From assembly GCA_900618425.1 (NCBI GenBank), contig UZAN01039867.1, positions 25,624 to 89,623 of the forward strand: a DNA stretch of 64,000 nucleotides, read 5' to 3'. Positions 1 through 61,510 of the stretch are shown here, piece after piece. The stretch is from Echinostoma caproni. Lineage: Eukaryota > Platyhelminthes > Trematoda > Plagiorchiida > Echinostomatidae. Under the pieces are notes generated by a model. It made no database searches and was not told where the DNA came from. It was given only the letters and a program-made list of their open reading frames with translations. Each line of letters opens with the position of its first letter. The first letter of the stretch is position 1. The translations under genes were made by a program, and so were the position numbers.

Positions 1-955
1 AATTTTAGATATTCTGCAAAAATAGAAAGCGTTCATATTGCTCACTCTGAGAAACAATACACTATGTTCGATTTGTGAGTACATGTGTACTCCCTATGGA
101 TTATTCTTATTTAATTAATTAATCATTGATTGGCAAATTCTTTGAAACGCATCTTTAAACGCATCGGCATCGCTAGAGATAAGCTCACACATTCTATCTC
201 TACTGAACAGACAGCAACAACCACCTGAAAATGTTATTGACAAAACCTACTCTCAACCAATGCTCCGCAAATGGAATGCCTGATCAAATTTCTCGCACAT
301 ATAGAAACGAGAGAATCCATCATTGCGGTCTGGATGATGCTCAGTAAGCTGTACAGTGAATCACTTCCAACTGTGTTGTACCCACATATTTCACGAGAGC
401 AGTTAGACACCGTTGCAGACGTGCACAAAAGAAGCTCCGTGGTAGCACTGAAATGAGAGCAGTGTTGTAAAATCTAGGCATACTTTTTGAGAGTTTCAAT
501 TTTGTGAAATTGCGCAATCCACCTTAAACTGGAATATAATTTTGAGTTCTTTATTAGTTTTCTGTGGACCCAAGTGTACATGAGAAGACGGTGTACTAAA
601 CGGATTCAAACAGTCAAAATGTCCATCTTTTTAGGCTTATATTGCTCAACTGTGTCGTATAAGAAAGTTTGATTTTCTGTCTCTCTAATCATTTTGTGTT
701 TGATCTGTTTAGAGTATAAACCAATGATGGCAATAGTTCAGTCCTAACCTAGGCTAGCACTGCAGGCAAACTCTAACCACTGAGCACGTACTCGCACAAC
801 CGAGGTGCGCTGCATCCAGTGTATGATATGAAAAAGGTAGATGCAGAACCAGAGTGCAAAAGTGGGGACGTTGTCCTCTGGGTATGAAGCTAATAGTCGT
901 TTGAAATAGGTTCACTTTAGGAAGTATCAAGCTTGGATAAGCCCATTCGATTGTT
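1..955. other. No gene recognised; weak repeat fragment
   Basis: No recognisable coding region. Positions 141-204 share a diverged block with 5511-5575 (common pieces CATCTTTAAA and GGCATC.CTAG), suggesting a small dispersed repeat. On the minus strand around 800-770 there is a polymerase III A-box-like stretch (TGCTCAGTGGTTAGAG) without a convincing B box, so it was not called as a SINE. Confidence 0.4.
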
Positions 956-959
956 CAGA

Positions 960-1200
960 GGCACCAGGCACTCTTGATGGTTCTCGTTGTGGGTTTCACT
1001 CCTGGGGATATCGCTAATCGCCCACTGTTTGTATACATTCAAATGCGATGAAAATGTTGGTGATAACCGACAAAGAGCACCGGATAACTGTTTCGTCCTG
1101 TTTGAGATTCGTCAGTACATTTGTGTCCCTGTCAGGACTCGAACCATGGACATTAGGGTCGGGACTTATCCCCAAAAGAAACAACGAGTCTAAAATGCTG
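960..1200 (-). mobile_element. Hammerhead SINE, copy 1 (degenerate)
   Basis: Minus-strand member of the hammerhead SINE family. A perfect polymerase III B box (GGTTCGAGTCC) lies at 1145-1135. It is followed by a hammerhead-like segment (about 1120-1075) and a tail shared with the copies at 26.9 and 27.2 kb (TCTTTGTCGGTTATC, then CGCATTTGAATGTAT, then CCCAGGAGTGAAACCC). No clear A box remains, so the 5' part is decayed or lost. Without a protein of its own, such an element would rely on another retroelement's enzyme. Family membership rests on base-by-base similarity with the intact copy at 27334-27500. Confidence 0.7.
1073..1121 (-). ncRNA. Hammerhead ribozyme remnant (core deletion)
   Basis: Read on the minus strand this has CTGACGA (1115-1109), a degenerate helix II (ATCT...GGAC), GAAAC (1094-1090) and TTATC at the cleavage position. 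In the intact copy the junction reads GCACTG-CTGACGA; here it reads GTACTGACGA. One CTG of a CTGCTG direct repeat is missing. If GTACTG is used for helix I it pairs fully with CGGTGC, and then the catalytic CUG is absent. It is probably inactive. Confidence 0.6.
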
Positions 1201-4200: not shown

Positions 4201-7200
4201 TGTTCATCGCAGAAACTATGGAGGCAATTCATGCAATTCATGCATACCACAATGGCTTTGTCGGTGTTTCTGGATCAGAACCCATCCCTCCTCTGTGAAT
4301 AGGTTACCATCTATCGTAGATTTGCTTTCCCATTTTAGATTGCTTCCACCCATACTATATAGAACCGCGTTGCACACTTCAAACACTAGTGTTTCTCCGT
4401 TGACTACTCTAATCTCACGACAGGATGTGCAACACCTTCAGAGTTGGGTACTTAGACTGTCCAACCGGTTTTGACTGCCTTGATCAATCGGGTTTGCTCA
4501 ATCTGATTAACGACGGTGGTGGCGGTCTGAACGTCTGCAGATAGATCGATTCTTAGATAGGAAGCAGTTCATGGTCTGAATGGCAGCAAATCTTCTAATC
4601 GCTCGGTTGCCTCTGACGTTCCCGAAGGTGCATTTCACCCCAGTTTCTTTCGCTGTATGTTAAAACAATTCAGTTCCTTTTATATTCATTGAATGCAACA
4701 CACACCCCTGAAGAGGTTTCAAACATTCAAATTAAGCTGAAAGATGTTGCGCATTGGTCCCTCTCCCGTTGCCTCTCATTGATTGTTTGAAACTGTCAGG
4801 AAATTGTGCTTTCCCGGTTGACCGACGAAAGACGGTTAACCGTCCGGCAATTATTATCTCATGCCGAAATCAACAAATATCTTGGCCTCAGTCTATCACT
4901 CTGATTAGGAGTAGATTGCGGCTCCCAGAAGTTGATTGTTGGATTTGTGAATTCATATCATTTGCGGTGGCATTACTGGGAATAAAACCGCACACTTTAT
5001 GTTGGATAGACACCTACAATCATGTGAATATTTTCTTACCAAAACACCAAAACAATCATTACCTCATTCACAACGAACTTGACACAATACACACAGGTGA
5101 AGGCTCAAATTTCTATTTCCATGTCGAATGCTGAAAATTGGCTCATTCGTGTACATAATGCCACTGGTTTTACACGTGCTTAATTACTATAGACATACGC
5201 AATTTTTTTGAGAAATTAAGTGTAGGCTGCATATTTTTGTTAAATGGTAGCTTTGATGTTCCCTTCCATTGACTACCCTAAACATTTTATGGTATTTTCT
5301 TTTCCCTGTTACCTGGCAACTAAGTATACAGTCTTTCTATTTGTAACCTTACAAACCTGTCATGCACCGTACTGTGATAACCAGTGGTCCCTGCTTTGCA
5401 CAATTTCATTGGTAAATCTTTGAATGCATGCATGCTCGCTCACTTGTTATACTGCTCCCCAGTGAGTTTTATCCGTCTGTCGGAAGAGCGTTTGCCTCGC
5501 TGACAAGATCCTTAGAATACATCTTTAAATGCTGTGGCATCACTAGGGCAGCAGCTATCCACTCTGTCATAAGCGCTAACTAAAAGCATATGAAAGTTTC
5601 AGTTCCAAAATATTCTCAGACGCCCATCAGCTGCTACACAACTAAACATCAATAGCACTATCTACACAATGTACGAATAAAAGTTTTAAATTTGTGGTTT
5701 GTATGTACCGCTTCCTATCTCAAATTAAAATTAAAATTGTTATCATGGGTAAATTGAAAATCTGGTGTTTATTGAATCCCATAGGATCTGTACGCTTTGG
5801 GTTCGGTTGGTAGTACAGTTAAATAGCCAATTATAATGTTCACTCACGGCTTCCTTCATTCGGTCACGACTTGAATGGATCGATGGTTGGTGCACATACA
5901 ACTTTGGTTGGAAGGGAGTTCCAGGTATCATAAACTGTGTTCTCAAAGAATAAAGCTTGCGGTCTAGCCGACTCTTTTTGAGTGAAGCTTAAACGGATGT
6001 CCTCTGAGGTGGCCGTTCCTGGATAGTGTTAGTCTAGTGTACAAAATTACAACTTACTTAAATTCACGTCGTGCGATTTGTCCTCTAGTGCACAAGAGTT
6101 ATCAATAATGATTGCAACGTGGCTTCCATGATAATTTAATGACAGATGGCAATAATGTTTAAACTCGTAACTGATATTTTCATATAAGTCTGGCTAACAA
6201 AGGACCTGAGTCTAACAATCGACCAAATTAATGACCTTACAGTCGCTTCGTAACAACGGATTCTGAGTGAATTCATTCACAAACAGTTAGCCACGGAATT
6301 GATGGACAAAAATAAAGCACTTTTGAATGGACTACCATAAATTCATTTTAAAGCTTTACCCGGAGAGTAGATCATTCTAGGTAAGTTGTTGCGACTGGTG
6401 ACTGAGTGTACTACCCGTGTATTCTCTGACGCGACTTGTGTTGTTCACAGTACCACACAATCTGTTAGCCTCAATCATTGTGAACTACAATATTTTAATG
6501 TGAAACGGTATCGTGGTGTATACGCAGTTTTACCGCGTTAACAACAACCTTACACAACAAAAATAACAATAACAACAACAAAAACAAAATAACACTGCGA
6601 GAAAAGATAAGTATCTGAAAATCAGGTCATGAATTTTTCAAATGGTGATTGTAACACACACTAGGGCGAATACCAATTTCATTAGGCTGAGTGCGAATCA
6701 TCAACAGGGCTACCAATTTGAACTCACTGGTTTGGCCGTGGTGATGAGGCCACAACACGACGGTGGCCTGCATCAATGAATCGCCTTTCCCTGAATCCCT
6801 TCGTCGTGCTTTGAGTGAACAGTTGAAGTGCGGGGTGCGCGGTGCCGGCTGGGGAGAGCAGAAAAATGCTCAGTGAAGTCACATCCACATGCTTCTACGT
6901 GGCTGATAGTTTAGTATAAAGAACCGACCCCAGTTCTGAATCCACTCGAAATACACTGGCAGATTTATTCTGGGCAATGCAGTCCGAGTTCTTATAAAAT
7001 TAGCGTCTTCACAAAATGCCGGACCATCCCTGGCCACTCACTGTCACTCTCAATACCCCGGTTGGACACACTTCTCACAGTAGGTTCTCCGTGCAGGGGG
7101 TTTCTGAACGACCTGCACGACACGGGAAAATACAAAAGGCAACCAAAAGATCAAGTGGGACATGCACACGACTCACAAGTAAGCCAAAATGGCTGCGTCC

Positions 7201-25400: not shown

Positions 25401-26930
25401 CTACCGGACGGATTTCTTTTCTGAATATCCGAGATGGTCATTATCCTCGTTCTAATTTGATTGAAACAGATATGATCAGGGGTAAAAGCTTCAATGCCAA
25501 GTGATCGTCAAACAGTACTTCATCAGTGAAATCCAATCAGGCAGTAGTTTGGGATCGTATGTTTGAATGATAGTTTACTGTGTCGGATAATCACTCAAAG
25601 TCTTTGTTACTTTTTGTTCGTTCAACTGCTCATTGGTTTAGCCCAGACTATCTAAAAAAATTATTTGAATGTCCTTACTTTATTCAGGGTCATGTCGATT
25701 TTTTGAGAGAATTTTCTACCACCAAAAAGCTAAATAAACGGTTGCGCTTTCCGGACACCGTTATAACCGTCTGACTAGGCCGCAGGATGATCAATTTTAT
25801 CTATTACTCCTCAATTCATGTTTCTTCCAATATATCGATTGCTGTCCCAGTCGAGGCGGGGTTGGTGCTTGTATATCGGAACCAGCACCAAAACCGATGT
25901 GCTTTTCTGCCTTAGGATTGTCAGAATTCCCAAACGGGTTGGACCACTTTTCTCTCTTGATCGAGGGAGAAAAATTCGTTGTGAGTTTTTCAAACATCCA
26001 GGTTTCAATGAGTTGGATTTGTGTTTGATGATAGTTACCCGCAATATGACCGAACCAGTGGCACTGCGGTCCTAGCACGAGCGAAGGAAGAGAGATGTTT
26101 TGTATGGTAATGATGATTATAAACTTTTAGGCAGAATGTCTGTCTCCGGCGAATGACTGGTTGATCAAATACCTCACGAGAGACATCTACACAGAATGCT
26201 TCAACGCCAATCACCCTTGTATTTAATTTCTTTGAAATGTTTGTCAATCCTATAGGTATTGTACACACACGTGAATATCTAAATCACAGAGAAATCAAAT
26301 TCGATCAATCAATCAAGGCAACACGTCATCGTGGTTAGTACACCAGTTGCCTGCGCGCACAAGATGCCTGTGCACGTTAGGAAGATAGAAAAATGGTTCG
26401 ATGATGCATAGATTTCCATATATACAGGTTCGTTTATTTGCAAATTTCCAAAAGTGCAATAAAAGTGGGTAACTTCACTCGTTGTAGTTACTTTCGATGA
26501 GTAGGCAAACGTGATCCAAAAGAATATGGCCAACACGTAGCTTCAAACTAATGCAAATCCAAAACTCTTTTTAATGGTTTCAAATTACCCAATATTGGTT
26601 CATGGGAACTCATTCAAATAAAGCGCAATTACTGTTGGAATAAATACAGACAGAAAATTTCTAACAGTGGTTTGCAAAAATTGACGAGAGATATTTCTCA
26701 ACAGCCACAACGAATATTTGACAGTTTGGAGTAGGTTTCAGACAACAGTTGGCGTAATCTGGTTTTGATCTCAACTTGCGGGGATTTGGGGATTGACAGC
26801 AGGAGTGTGAGTGAATCAACTTATCGTTTTGGATGGTCGATCTTTCGATTAACCCATTTCGTTTTTCATAAGCACTGGGCACTTTTGACGATCTTGTGAG
26901 TGGATTGCACTCCTCACGAGATCGTTAACC
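25400..26930. other. Unannotated stretch
   Basis: Open frames overlap on both strands at 25797-26078 but none has a recognisable domain, so no gene is called. Confidence 0.4.
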
Positions 26931-26934
26931 CTCC

Positions 26935-27075
26935 CCCCGATTAAAATGCATTTAAATGTGATGTAAGTCGTCGTGATAACCGACAAAGAGCACTAGACAG
27001 CTGTTTTGTCCTGTGGGTGACCGGTCCGCAGTGCAAACGTTTTGAGACCGTGTGTGGACTCGAACCATGAACAGT
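26935..27075 (-). mobile_element. Hammerhead SINE, copy 2 (degenerate)
   Basis: Minus-strand copy. B box GGTTCGAGTCC (27066-27056), then a mutated hammerhead (27033-26989), then the family tail (TCTTTGTCGGTTATCACGAC, 26986-26967) ending in an A/T-rich stretch. The part before the B box (CCCGACTGTTCATGGTTCGA) matches copy 1 at 1.1 kb, so the two share a head subtype that differs from the copies at 27.3 and 52.5 kb. Confidence 0.7.
26989..27033 (-). ncRNA. Hammerhead ribozyme remnant (mutated core)
   Basis: Helix I is still complementary (GCACTG with TAGTGC, one G-U pair) and the cleavage triplet GTC and helix III palindrome ACAGCTGT are intact. The core CTGACGA has become CGGACCG and GAAA has become AAAA, both expected to abolish cleavage. 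Confidence 0.65.
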
Positions 27076-27159
27076 CGGGTTGGGTCGGTGAATGTTGGGA
27101 TTATCTCATTGGGCTTTTTTACACGCTCAGGCCCTTCAAATGACCCTGGATGTGAGTTT

Positions 27160-27250
27160 CACTCCTTGGTCGGTTTCCATCCCATTTGAATGTATTGAGC
27201 GGGAAGTAACGATAACCCCGGGAGTGAAACCCAAACGCAAGTTCATCAAC
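27160..27250 (+). repeat. Hammerhead SINE 3' fragment
   Basis: Plus-strand tail fragment of the family: CATCCCATTTGAATGTATTG, then AACGATAACCCCGGGAGTGA, then AACCCAAACGCAAGTTCATC. It matches the tail of copy 1 read on the minus strand. No ribozyme or tRNA head remains. It sits between copies 2 (minus) and 3 (plus). Confidence 0.6.
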
Positions 27251-27333
27251 TGTAACTGATGCTTGTGAAAATCGCAATGGACTAAGCAAGTGGTTAAACT
27301 AACTGGGTTCTTTGCGCAAGTTGATGAACATAG

Positions 27334-27505
27334 ACCGGGTAGCTGAGGGGTACAGTTTGAAGTCCGGATCTGCATGTTTGCAGTCCGAGACTAGATTGAG
27401 GCACATATTGTACGCACTGCTGACGAGTCCCAAACAGGACGAAACAGCTGTCCAGTGTTCTTTGTCAGTTATAACAAACATTTCCAATGGAATGATCGCC
27501 TTTTC
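27334..27505 (+). mobile_element. Hammerhead SINE, copy 3 (best ribozyme)
   Basis: Plus-strand copy with a tRNA-like head: A box TAGCTGAGGGG (27340-27350) and a diverged B box GTCCGAGACT (about 27383-27392) about 32 bp later, which fits a tRNA. A short linker leads to a complete hammerhead (27414-27458) and then the shared tail (TCTTTGTCAGTTATAAC). The layout, a polymerase III head followed by a type I hammerhead, matches what is known for the Sm-alpha SINEs of Schistosoma. The end of the copy is set by loss of similarity and no A tail is seen. Confidence 0.75.
27414..27458 (+). ncRNA. Type I hammerhead ribozyme (apparently intact)
   Basis: All conserved positions are present. Helix I: GCACTG (27414-27419) pairs with CAGTGT (27453-27458), five Watson-Crick pairs and one G-U. 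Core CTGACGA is at 27420-27426. Helix II is GTCC (27427-27430) with GGAC (27437-27440), closed by CAAACA. Core GAAA is at 27441-27444. Helix III is the palindrome ACAGCTGT (27444-27451). The cleavage triplet GTC (27450-27452) predicts self-cleavage after 27452. Helix III has no loop, so a monomer would have a strained short helix; dimeric folding, as known for short-helix-III hammerheads, is more likely. Confidence 0.9.
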
Positions 27506-32840: not shown

Positions 32841-33023
32841 GGGCGGTGGCGGCCCGGTGGTAACGTCATCAAATGATCACTCTGGGGGATGTGTGTTCGA
32901 ATCCCACCACCACCGCCTGACTTTACCCATTGCGTTGAATGAAGCCTTTTGATTGGCCACTTCCTACCTTCCTGAAAATTGTACCACTGCATGTTCAATA
33001 AAAAAAGAGAAAAAGAAAAAAAA
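32841..33023 (+). mobile_element. tRNA-derived SINE, family 1, copy c
   Basis: Full-length plus-strand copy: GGCGGCCCGGTGGTAACG (A-box region), GTGTTCGAATCCC (B box, about 32890-32902), CACCGCCTGACTTTACCCAT, then CTTTTGATTGGCC, CTACCTTCCTGAAAATTG and CAATAAAAAAAGAG..., ending in an A-rich tail at 33023. It lies in repeat X copy 1, and the uninterrupted paralogous site is near 34985-35000, so the insertion can be bounded from outside. The minus-strand open frame across it is a translation of the SINE, not a gene. Confidence 0.9.
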
Positions 33024-52224: not shown

Positions 52225-52560
52225 ATATTCCAGGAACTTGAATGAACTGACGGACGCTCATTGAAATCGCGGCCATGGCATGTACCTTGATGTTAGAAGC
52301 AATCCATTCCGGGTGAAAAAACACATCCTCAAATATATCGCTTATTTCATGTGAATAACCGAGGATTTGGTTCAATTTAAAAAGGAAAATTCGCCGCGTA
52401 TATGTCAAATGAACCGTAAACTGAAAAGCTAGGAAGCATTGGACAGCTATTTCGACCTGCTTGGGTTTCATCAGCAGTCCGAATCCATCGACTCAACTGG
52501 GGATCGAACCCGGGACCTCATGGGCAGAACGTATGCATGCTACCCACTCGGCCACCGGGT
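52225..52560 (-). mobile_element. Hammerhead SINE, copy 4 (good tRNA head)
   Basis: Minus-strand copy with a well preserved polymerase III head: ACCCGGTGGCCGAGTGGGTAG (A box TGGCCGAGTGG, about 52554-52544), 30-odd bases, then CGGGTTCGATCCCC (B box, 52512-52499). A hammerhead follows (52480-52436), then a tail that does not obviously match the other copies. The head sequence differs from those at 1.1, 27.0 and 27.3 kb while the ribozyme segment is shared. A plus-strand head-like piece (CCCGGTGGCGTAGTTGG, about 52608-52624) lies 50 bp away in inverted orientation. Confidence 0.75.
52436..52480 (-). ncRNA. Hammerhead ribozyme (core intact, helices weakened)
   Basis: CTGATGA (52474-52468) and GAAA are intact and the triplet GTC is present. 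Helix II reads AACC/GGTC with loop CAAGCA: the first pair next to the core is an A-C mismatch and three pairs follow. Helix III is ATAGCTGT. Helix I GGACTG with CAATGC has four pairs and two mismatches. Activity is possible but likely reduced. Confidence 0.7.
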
Positions 52561-52624
52561 ATCGGATCAGATCCTTTTTCATTTTCCATTCACGGTTTGA
52601 TCAATTGCCCGGTGGCGTAGTTGG

Positions 52625-58704: not shown

Positions 58705-61510
58705 GTTTGTGCATAAAAAATACTCCTTTTAGTTTACTTCATTCAGACAAACCCAAAAGACAACATAGGGTGCATTTCCCGCATAATAATGAGCAAATTA
58801 CACTCGTGATAACCTGCTGATTCGAGATTTGATTCCACATCCCAAATGGTAAGCAGCTGCTGCATTTTTTCAATCTGTCTATAGGTGTTAGTAACTGAGA
58901 GAATCAACCTCTCACCGTTGATTAATAAATTATCTGTGGCCACGATGAAGTTACCACCCAAAGTCCACCAATAATTATGATTTCTTAACGATAGTATTCT
59001 CTCAGTCAAGTGACCGGAAAATCAACTTGTACACAGCATGTGGTCAGTCTGGTTGCGTTTTCTTTTAAACCACTCTGTGTTAGTGTGTTTCGTGACATTT
59101 TATGGTTGCTGGAGTGTGTAATTGCTCAAAGTCAGAGTTCTCTGCCTGGATAGTTGACAGACAGCTAATAATCAGACAAGTGGTCCAATAAACCTGACTG
59201 GTTTATTTTCATCTTACAGCCTGAGCGATATTAATCGGTTCTGATTGATGGAAGCTCTGTGATAAATGAGTGTGCTTATCACGTAATGTTCTCAAAAAAA
59301 AACAGTTGTATTTTGTTTTATCACAAACTTCCATTCAGACAAGGTGGGATCGATTCGTAAGCAAAGGGAGGTATTCGCGGATTGCTGAAGACTCCCGTCT
59401 ATATACATCGTTTCCATTTAGTATCCATTGTAGTTTCTATTTTTGATTTCCTGCATTGGATGTAGCTCAAAATTACATTCGCTAGTGACTGACCTGCTAA
59501 TTATGACTTATCCGCATGATGTGAACAAGTGTTGGTTGGTTTTCTATCAATAAGATAAACGGAATTTGCCAATAGGGATTGGTTGGTAAACCATTGACCG
59601 ATTCAGCTATGAACGCTTTCAGATTTTCATCCGTCAAACTGTGATCTATGTGCAATTATCCTCAAAACATTTAACCGGAGTTGGGACTGGTTCTTCTCGC
59701 CTTAATGATGTCTGTCAAGTTTGAAGCCGTGTGTGAAATTTATATGCAGACAAAACCAACGGTAGCGCGATTATATGTCATTAAATGATGCCTATATAAG
59801 AAAAATAAATTTCATTTAATCTGATGTCACTACTTCTTTGTATTTATTTCAGCAAATTATGCGGTAGGGATTTCATTCTCCTGATACGGAACGTTTCATC
59901 GTATTTAAATTATAAAGAAATTCGAGCCTCGGTCGTGCAAAACAGTGAACGGTAGGACTGTTGCATTTTTGTCAATGGTCTACGGAGAAGAGGTAATGAC
60001 GCAGATGTTTCTCCAGGATTCATTGAACTAATCGGTAGTGGTGTCCTCGAAAGCAAGTCTTCGTGATTTTGGGTTCACACATGAATAGTTGACTTTTGAG
60101 TCCCCAATGAAGACAACCGTGCAAACACTACTGACCTGTTACAGGAATGAGAGATTTTGCTGTTAATTCTCACTTTATTCTGTGGAATAACTACATAAAT
60201 TCTCAAATGTATTTGTTAATATTATTATCTCCGATTACCAGTGCCTGGAGTCTTTGAAAAGTTGAATGGGTTGATCCAAACAAACATTCATCCTCTAAAT
60301 TCCTTGATTCACTGAAATCTGGGGCTGTGAGTGGCTAAAATTCGACATGGTTAGTTTTCACTTCCGGATTACTTTACAATTATCGGATGAAAACCGCAAG
60401 GTTACGAAGGATTACGCAAACGGAGCAGTGCAATCCTTACGGCATCACCAGACGTGTGTATTCCCAGCCCGAATGTTAGAGATAGACATCTATGAAATAT
60501 GGAACCACTTGGTTTGGTCTACAGTTGACTGTATCGGTTTCAACGGTTCCTATGAATTTCCTGTGATTTATTTAATAATAACTGTCAACTATTTCCCGAT
60601 CCCTCGTTTGAGCAGTTTGGGATTGAACACAATACTCCGTTATGGAATAAACACTTTGGGAAAAATCTTACCAAATGCAATTTCTTAAGTATCATCCTCG
60701 TTTATGAGAAATTCGGCAAACTACCTAACCTCAGTCTTCATTAGCCCTTGGTCGCGAGAAACATGACAATACACGCACGGCGACGTACACATACTGGTAC
60801 TCCTTTTGAAAAGATTCTTCCAGGTGGAGGAAGCTCTGCGTGACCAGTACGTGAATCACGCTTGGCTCCTCTCAGCAGTGGCTTCCTAGCGTATGATTCG
60901 GTAGGAAGCTTTCAAAACCTGATTAATTGTTCAAATCAAATTGTCCACTACTCCCACACGTCAGTAAATACTCTCTACAGAAAACAAAATAATTTAAATA
61001 TCACAAGTGATGAGAATTTGGCACAATATCAAACCACTGGTCCGCTGGATTGGTCACTGCGACATCAGCTGACTGAGGTATACCTTGTTTTGCGGACTAA
61101 GAGTCTGCACTGGAATATTTTAGCTTCTGTAAATTTTATTTGCTGACCACTTGGAGTTAAGTCCTAAACATATTGGAACGATATCCGTTTACCGATTTGA
61201 TGGCCAGCCCGTGACAACTGCCGAGCAGTTCAAAATGCGTGTAGGTGTTCTGTACAACTAGTTTGAACAGCTATTGATTTGTACACCCCTCAGTCTACAC
61301 TGTTTGCACACGGCCGGTGGAGGTGTTTTGTCATTTGGATCCGAAGCTGCATCTATGTAGTTCGCACGCAGGTGGCTACGCAGCTGCATTACTGACCTGT
61401 TTTGGATTCTCTCATTTCCGATGATAACATAAATCTTGAACCTCTGGTTCTATTAGGAAACACAAGTATGTTTCTTCTTATGGATTTTACATTCAGGTAC
61501 TATATGTGTA
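58705..61510. other. Unannotated stretch
   Basis: No gene recognised. It may hold the untranslated or ORF1 part of copy B next to 58.7 kb, but nothing supports a boundary. Confidence 0.4.

Follow-up and report, generated by a model that had tools for sequence, protein, structure and literature searches.

Hammerhead Ribozymes in the Window

The window, a 64-kb stretch of an Echinostoma caproni contig, carries copies of two hammerhead repeat families, here called family 1 and family 2, and a LINE-type reverse transcriptase gene (Table 1). An earlier reading of the letters alone (the sequence-only reading) had placed an intact hammerhead at 27414-27458 inside a tRNA-headed SINE. The hammerhead itself was borne out by covariance search. 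The cmscan match to Hammerhead_1 covers the whole model with every pair standard, and with its core, three helices, and a score over the gathering score of 34 it is a type I hammerhead as RF00163 defines it. The parts read by eye agree with this match: a six-pair helix I (GCACTG/CAGTGT, outermost pair G-U), a four-pair helix II (GTCC/GGAC) with loop CAAACA, the conserved core CTGACGA...GAA, and the GTC triplet at 27450-27452, with cleavage predicted after 27452. The stem sequences differ from the Rfam consensus.

Helix III is ACAG/CTGT. It is loopless in Rfam notation, as in the Rfam consensus, and had been taken to predict activity as a dimer. Tandem copies do exist, but because an alternative reading of helix III has two pairs under an AGCT cap, a dimer would be favored and not required. 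Three hammerheads on the minus strand (52480-52436, 1121-1079, and 26990-27034) were absent from the sequence-only reading.

Table 1. Repeat copies, ribozymes, and coding sequence located in the window (window positions; unit numbers refer to the 320-nt family 1 consensus).
Feature	Position	Strand	Evidence and remarks
Family 1 copy	916-1167	-	184.8 bits to unit; broken hammerhead at 1079-1121; B end at 916
Broken hammerhead	1079-1121	-	RF00163 21.6 bits, under gathering score
Inverted partner arm	26822-27194	-	Head-to-head with 27174-27489; class B end at 26822 (unit 11)
Decayed hammerhead of inverted arm	26990-27034	-	37/45 identical to consensus; coordinates read from sequence
Single retrozyme unit, circularly permuted	27174-27489	+	Runs from unit 189 across 320/1 to 197; tail-head junction present
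Subparts of 27174-27489	27174-27288; 27294-27413; near 27489	+	Upstream-unit tail; head (followed by hammerhead); site-A end
A-box-like motif (TAGCTGAGGG)	27340-27349	+	Read against family consensus
Degraded B box	about 27381-27391	+	Read against family consensus
Type I hammerhead	27414-27458	+	RF00163 (Hammerhead_1), 56.6 bits, E 3.5e-12; 44/45 identical to family consensus
Copy of second, younger hammerhead family (363-nt unit)	52323-52593	-	At least 42 further matches
Family 2 hammerhead	52436-52480	-	RF00163 35.3 bits, gathering-level; non-standard pairs present
Possible family 1 tail fragment (weak)	60236-60314	+	14.6 bits
LINE-type reverse transcriptase ORF, 515 aa	61774-63321	-	RVT_1, E 8.7e-30

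Among named fluke proteins, the LINE-type reverse transcriptase is nearest to those of Trichobilharzia (37-39% identity); its best match (68%) is nameless. Two fluke-like reverse transcriptases from the same search (P0003 and P0004) are labeled Streptococcus dysgalactiae, probably by contamination. Searched with three pieces of Penelope-like element (PLE) protein at E 1e-4, the window gave no match. Another repeat has three window copies, at 32894 (+), 16839 (-), and 9048 (-), with a B-box-like TGTTCGAATCC or TATTCGAGTCC followed by a CACCACCACCGCC-like stretch; it is perhaps a further SINE family.

The Family 1 Unit

The 426.5-Mb assembly (12,689 contigs) was searched, and all genome counts are lower bounds. 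At least 74 hammerhead candidates pass the cut-off: scoring covered 74 out of 66,429 loose candidates, and every one of them cleared it (top score 60.6 bits). This upholds the suggestion that the genome has its own hammerhead families, and supports their being akin in kind to schistosome Sm-alpha. A set of 68 loci was taken from the 74 best-scoring; being selected by the hammerhead, it is uninformative on hammerhead conservation. The consensus unit from these loci is 320 nt long and consists of an A/B-box-like head (A-box-like motif at unit 45, B-box-like at 90), the hammerhead (122-166, cleavage predicted after unit 160), and a tail. The same junction from tail to next head was present in 26 of 69 sources (25 of the 68 loci plus the window), and units occur head-to-tail and circularly permuted.

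Metazoan non-LTR retrozymes are recognized by a hammerhead in short tandem units, which is what the 26 junctions and a family 2 dimer at locus L122 present. With tandem copies of both kinds (26 junctions in 69 sources; two 363-bp units at L122), dimeric or multimeric RNA is plausible. Excerpts of PMC7229834 describe retrozymes that are alike in their type I hammerhead, short repeat of about 300 bp, low G+C, copy number from dimers upward, lack of an ORF, and target duplications when present; platyhelminths are among the carriers named there. Unlike the retrozymes in those excerpts, the present unit, known here from DNA, has an A/B-box-like head and ends like those of resident PLEs, and many of its copies are permuted singles or head-to-head pairs and not long arrays. 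A free energy of -91.6 kcal/mol was predicted for the circular fold of the unit; 100 mononucleotide shuffles averaged -75.7 (s.d. 5.4).

The Head and the SINE Label

The A/B-box-like labels of the unit head follow tRNA numbering and the consensus of the polymerase III boxes. The A-box-like motif of the claimed polymerase III head is present in the window copy, but its B box is degraded relative to the family GGTTCGAGTCC. ARAGORN called no tRNA in the 64-kb window or in 30 head-chosen loci with better heads, and cmscan at E up to 0.1 called none in six head-chosen loci. Moreover, unit sequence lies upstream of the head. This is the tail of the preceding unit, and since it runs into the head across the common junction, the head is internal. 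A tRNA-derived SINE begins with a tRNA-like 5' head; here the boxes are present, no tRNA was called, and unit sequence precedes them. The description "tRNA-headed SINE" keeps its A/B-box-like head but fails as a definition because the head is internal and neither ARAGORN nor cmscan called a tRNA; the inserts are also permuted and often head-to-head. Transcription from the A/B-box-like motifs is possible.

Sm-alpha and Sj-alpha are the closest described parallels in flukes in being dispersed hammerhead repeats of about 330 bp, and excerpts of PMC2770079 and PMC8490949 term them SINE-like and report a tRNA-related head for Sm-alpha. No tRNA was called in the present head, which was set against Sm-alpha by description, the Rfam model alone being aligned. 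The SINE-like label, the A/B-box-like head, and the LINE-type reverse transcriptase in the window all favor an Sm-alpha-like SINE moved by a LINE, with inverted pairs produced by twin priming and tandem junctions by copies landing beside copies. We consider this unlikely: the junction is identical in 26 sources, the head is not 5'-terminal, the arms overlap widely with two recurrent end sites that pair A with B, and the unit ends resemble PLE ends.

Insertion Anatomy

The ends of 125 unit matches fell into 55 of class A (about unit 204), 52 of class B (about unit 5), and 18 others. Neighboring inverted arms in the hammerhead-chosen loci and the window were head-to-head in 38 cases and tail-to-tail in none; 31 of these pairs joined an A to a B end, 4 were B-other, 3 A-other, and none AA or BB. 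These pair counts depend on the limits set for the end classes (A 180-225, B 304-30, in unit coordinates); matches nested in stronger ones were dropped, and arms were joined if no more than 30 bases apart. A second set of 30 loci was chosen by the head without use of the ribozyme, as the highest-scoring of 40 scored from 3525 candidates, with a query that takes in the first bases after B. It gave 21 head-to-head pairs and no tail-to-tail pair (17 AB, 2 B-other, 1 other-other, 1 AA). Inserts flanked by target duplications scoring 9 or more numbered 14 of 67, where shuffled partners predict 0.56 (one of the 14, at L060, being a simple AT repeat); in the head-chosen set they numbered 14 of 32, with 0.14 expected. 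A foldback DNA transposon was considered and rejected; the arms usually end at different unit sites, and the centers are variable.

PLE-type insertion combines head-to-head arms, two end sites, and a target duplication, and family 1 inserts show all three. In excerpts of PMC3846280, a PLE insert consists of direct pLTRs next to an inverted one, may have a tail on one of the inverted pLTRs, and comes with short target duplications. According to excerpts of PMC11167929, a PLE protein in purified form cleaves both strands and extends them, starting at two internal sites, and the stretch between these sites corresponds to the genomic tail. Partial tandems, the inverted head-to-head arm, short target duplications, two internal start sites, and the end motif are shared between the PLEs of these sources and the present unit. 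Unlike PLEs, the unit has no coding capacity and bears a canonical hammerhead, while the 3' ends of resident PLEs give none with Rfam. The PMC3846280 excerpts favor self-priming on an antisense template for the head-to-head pairs, which counts against the two-strand model of PLE insertion. Hammerhead cleavage is not required by the PLE model, because PLE insertion in vitro went ahead with hammerhead mutants (PMC11167929).

Age and Mosaic Structure of the Window Copy

The window pair (26822-27489) has one class B and one class A end, and no target duplication was recognizable around it. The strong part of its inverted arm is 26822-27085; the remainder (27098-27194) is weak, at 16.1 bits. Identity to the family consensus is 44/45 in the hammerhead, 53/72 in the head, and 150/198 elsewhere. 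Judged by these identities, the copy is old save for a well-kept ribozyme end, and its identity of about 75% outside the hammerhead makes it an unlikely live source. It would be an old product of PLE-driven head-to-head cDNA joining.

The good state of the hammerhead relative to its surroundings could speak for selection on a local function. This explanation is highly improbable. The preserved stretch extends to the end of the insert, 27408-27489 being up to 96% identical to other copies over 77 bases, whereas the identity of the preceding 124 bases to their four other matches is 74% over 103 bases and 78-83% over spans of 57-72. Such a mosaic fits gene conversion, template switching, or a chance choice by eye. 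In 32 head-selected copies the hammerhead also decays, with 113/1427 mismatches versus 109/1086 downstream (p 0.065), and the core motifs are kept in 19 of the 32; selection on single hammerheads is unsupported by these counts. The window copy was also considered as a subfamily of its own and this was rejected; none of its four other matches is a close full-length relative, although the word filter used can miss copies.

Resident Penelope-Like Elements and the Shared End Motif

One PLE endonuclease piece has at least 151 matches in the genome (best 150 of 3515 candidates scored), and the element at L104 codes for RVT_1 followed by GIY-YIG. Sixteen PLE 3' flanks were examined, and 11 contain a common 3' motif; the direct arms at L105 and L106 end short of it, and L114, L116, and L121 are without that region. 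In the alignment of these 11 copies, as judged by eye, three ended at P1 (GGATCTAAT or near) and eight continued to P2, among them the L113 copy, which has a deletion at P1. The inverted arm at L104 breaks off near P1 while the direct arm reaches P2, which is the published PLE pattern of a tail on one arm. Directly downstream of this PLE lies a head-to-head tRNA-like pair (L104:5914-5995 on the minus strand and 6043-6124 on the plus strand; 46.1 and 48.8 bits), whose arms are 83% identical and which is another repeat with the head-to-head pattern.

Retrozyme ends A (unit 165-212) and B align to one stretch of the PLE consensus and end at the same place; A and B were located first and then matched to PLE ends, the only ends covered by the comparison. 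In 3000 first-order resamplings of the PLE piece, the score was reached 0 times for A, once for B of subfamily 2, and 13 times for B of subfamily 1. Control parts of the unit were matched far more often in the same resamplings (head 960, hammerhead 590, middle 523). The shared word, GGCTAATCCAAACATTC, is 17 nt, and the maximum in 300 mononucleotide shuffles was 13. Against single PLE copies, the score of A was reached by 0 of 300 shuffles for L104, L110, and L109, by 1 for L119, 14 for L118, and 55 for L117. Subfamily 2 B was reached by no shuffle against any of the six copies (300 each), and subfamily 1 B was weak, reached by 0 to 37 of 300. Compared directly with each other, A and B gave a score reached in 20 of 3000 resamplings.

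Both ends sit in largely unpaired loops of the predicted circular fold, and both finish in TTAA/CTAA-like sequence. These features would also suit a second account, in which the retrozyme's RNA, circular or multimeric, serves as template for a reverse transcriptase other than that of PLEs, and the PLE-like ends are convergent AT-rich loops. That seems rather improbable, as the matches span about 30-40 nt and end where PLE copies end, and the head-to-head arrangement with a tail is known from PLEs (excerpts of PMC3846280). Rfam gave no hammerhead in the 3' region of resident PLEs, and a hammerhead-like stretch spotted there by eye was discarded for want of an Rfam hit. The retrozyme is not itself an autonomous PLE, the 320-nt unit being too short for an ORF with reverse transcriptase and GIY-YIG domains.

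Family 2

Family 2 has at least 43 matches in the genome (best 40 of 3365 candidates scored); most of the other matches listed are 88-92% identical to the window copy, many with equal scores. Of the nine hammerhead matches at six loci, seven score 49.9 bits and an eighth 41.4; the ninth, at 27.9, is under the gathering score. At L122, two 363-bp units stand head-to-tail with an intact hammerhead in each. Compensatory helix changes, for which the sequence-only reading had looked to other genomic copies, are found between the families: helix II is GACC/GGTC in family 2 against GTCC/GGAC in family 1, and so the difference is a compensatory change from U-A to A-U. Within family 1 covariation is nearly uninformative; only one pair has both partners exchanged (C-G to T-A), and this in just 2 of the 50 distinct sequences.

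Opposed family 2 copies no more than about 1.5 kb apart were found on seven contigs and were head-to-head in all seven. Family 2 inserts resemble PLE insertion in these pairs but not in the two-site A/B end rule, which was not seen in the few composites examined. At about L106:3485-3500 (contig 4019), a PLE 3' region cut short of P1 joins a family 2 tail directly, and the sequence beyond is N. This is possibly a template switch between PLE and family 2 RNAs, or another rearrangement. About 10 nt past its hammerhead, the family 2 unit contains TTTT. Polymerase III would stop at such a run, which counts against a polymerase III step.

A Proposed Cycle

How retrozymes return to DNA in animals is left open in the accessible text of PMC7229834 and PMC7761336, which regard PLEs as strong or likely candidate mobilizers from the type I hammerheads in both, the tandem arrangement, and their co-occurrence. 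The family 1 element is best read as a non-autonomous hammerhead retrozyme with an A/B-box-like head, mobilized by PLE machinery; PLEs look like the mobilizing machinery and not a parallel only. Because the end comparison covers PLEs alone and family 2 does not show the two-site rule, we hold our confidence in this reading to about 0.7.

Tandem or permuted units would be transcribed, perhaps by polymerase III. The hammerhead would then cut the multimers into 320-nt units, which may circularize. Cleaved units are known to circularize in other animals. A PLE protein with reverse transcriptase and GIY-YIG endonuclease, presumably acting in trans, would cut both target strands, and copying would start internally, at A or at B (near units 204 and 5, respectively), both like the PLE 3'-terminal motif. 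The recurrent A/B ends and the PLE-motif resemblance are the observed basis of this step. Two cDNAs would finally meet head-to-head, usually with one A and one B end, within a target duplication; the product structure (head-to-head arms, A/B ends, target duplication) is observed in the inserts. In the fuller form of this proposal, retrozymes would be PLE parasites: their self-cleaved RNA, circular or multimeric, would present two versions of the PLE start signal in loops, and copying would proceed from both cut target strands together. For the same two reasons we put this form at slightly under even odds.

If this cycle holds, Sm-alpha-type elements would be retrozymes with an internal promoter of polymerase III type and not LINE-dependent SINEs, and schistosome hammerhead SINEs, retrozymes, and PLEs would be united in one cycle. 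Insertion anatomy and the common end motif point toward the PLE machinery and name two putative start sites, A and B. A partial search of the open literature, without Ferbeyre 1998 and Cervera and de la Pena 2014, recognized no report of a PLE tail signature in retrozymes.

Head-to-head retrozyme pairs at L091:1638-1857 and L093:1706-1804 match plant and animal microRNA families below the cut-offs, and such pairs could be mistaken for microRNA precursors.
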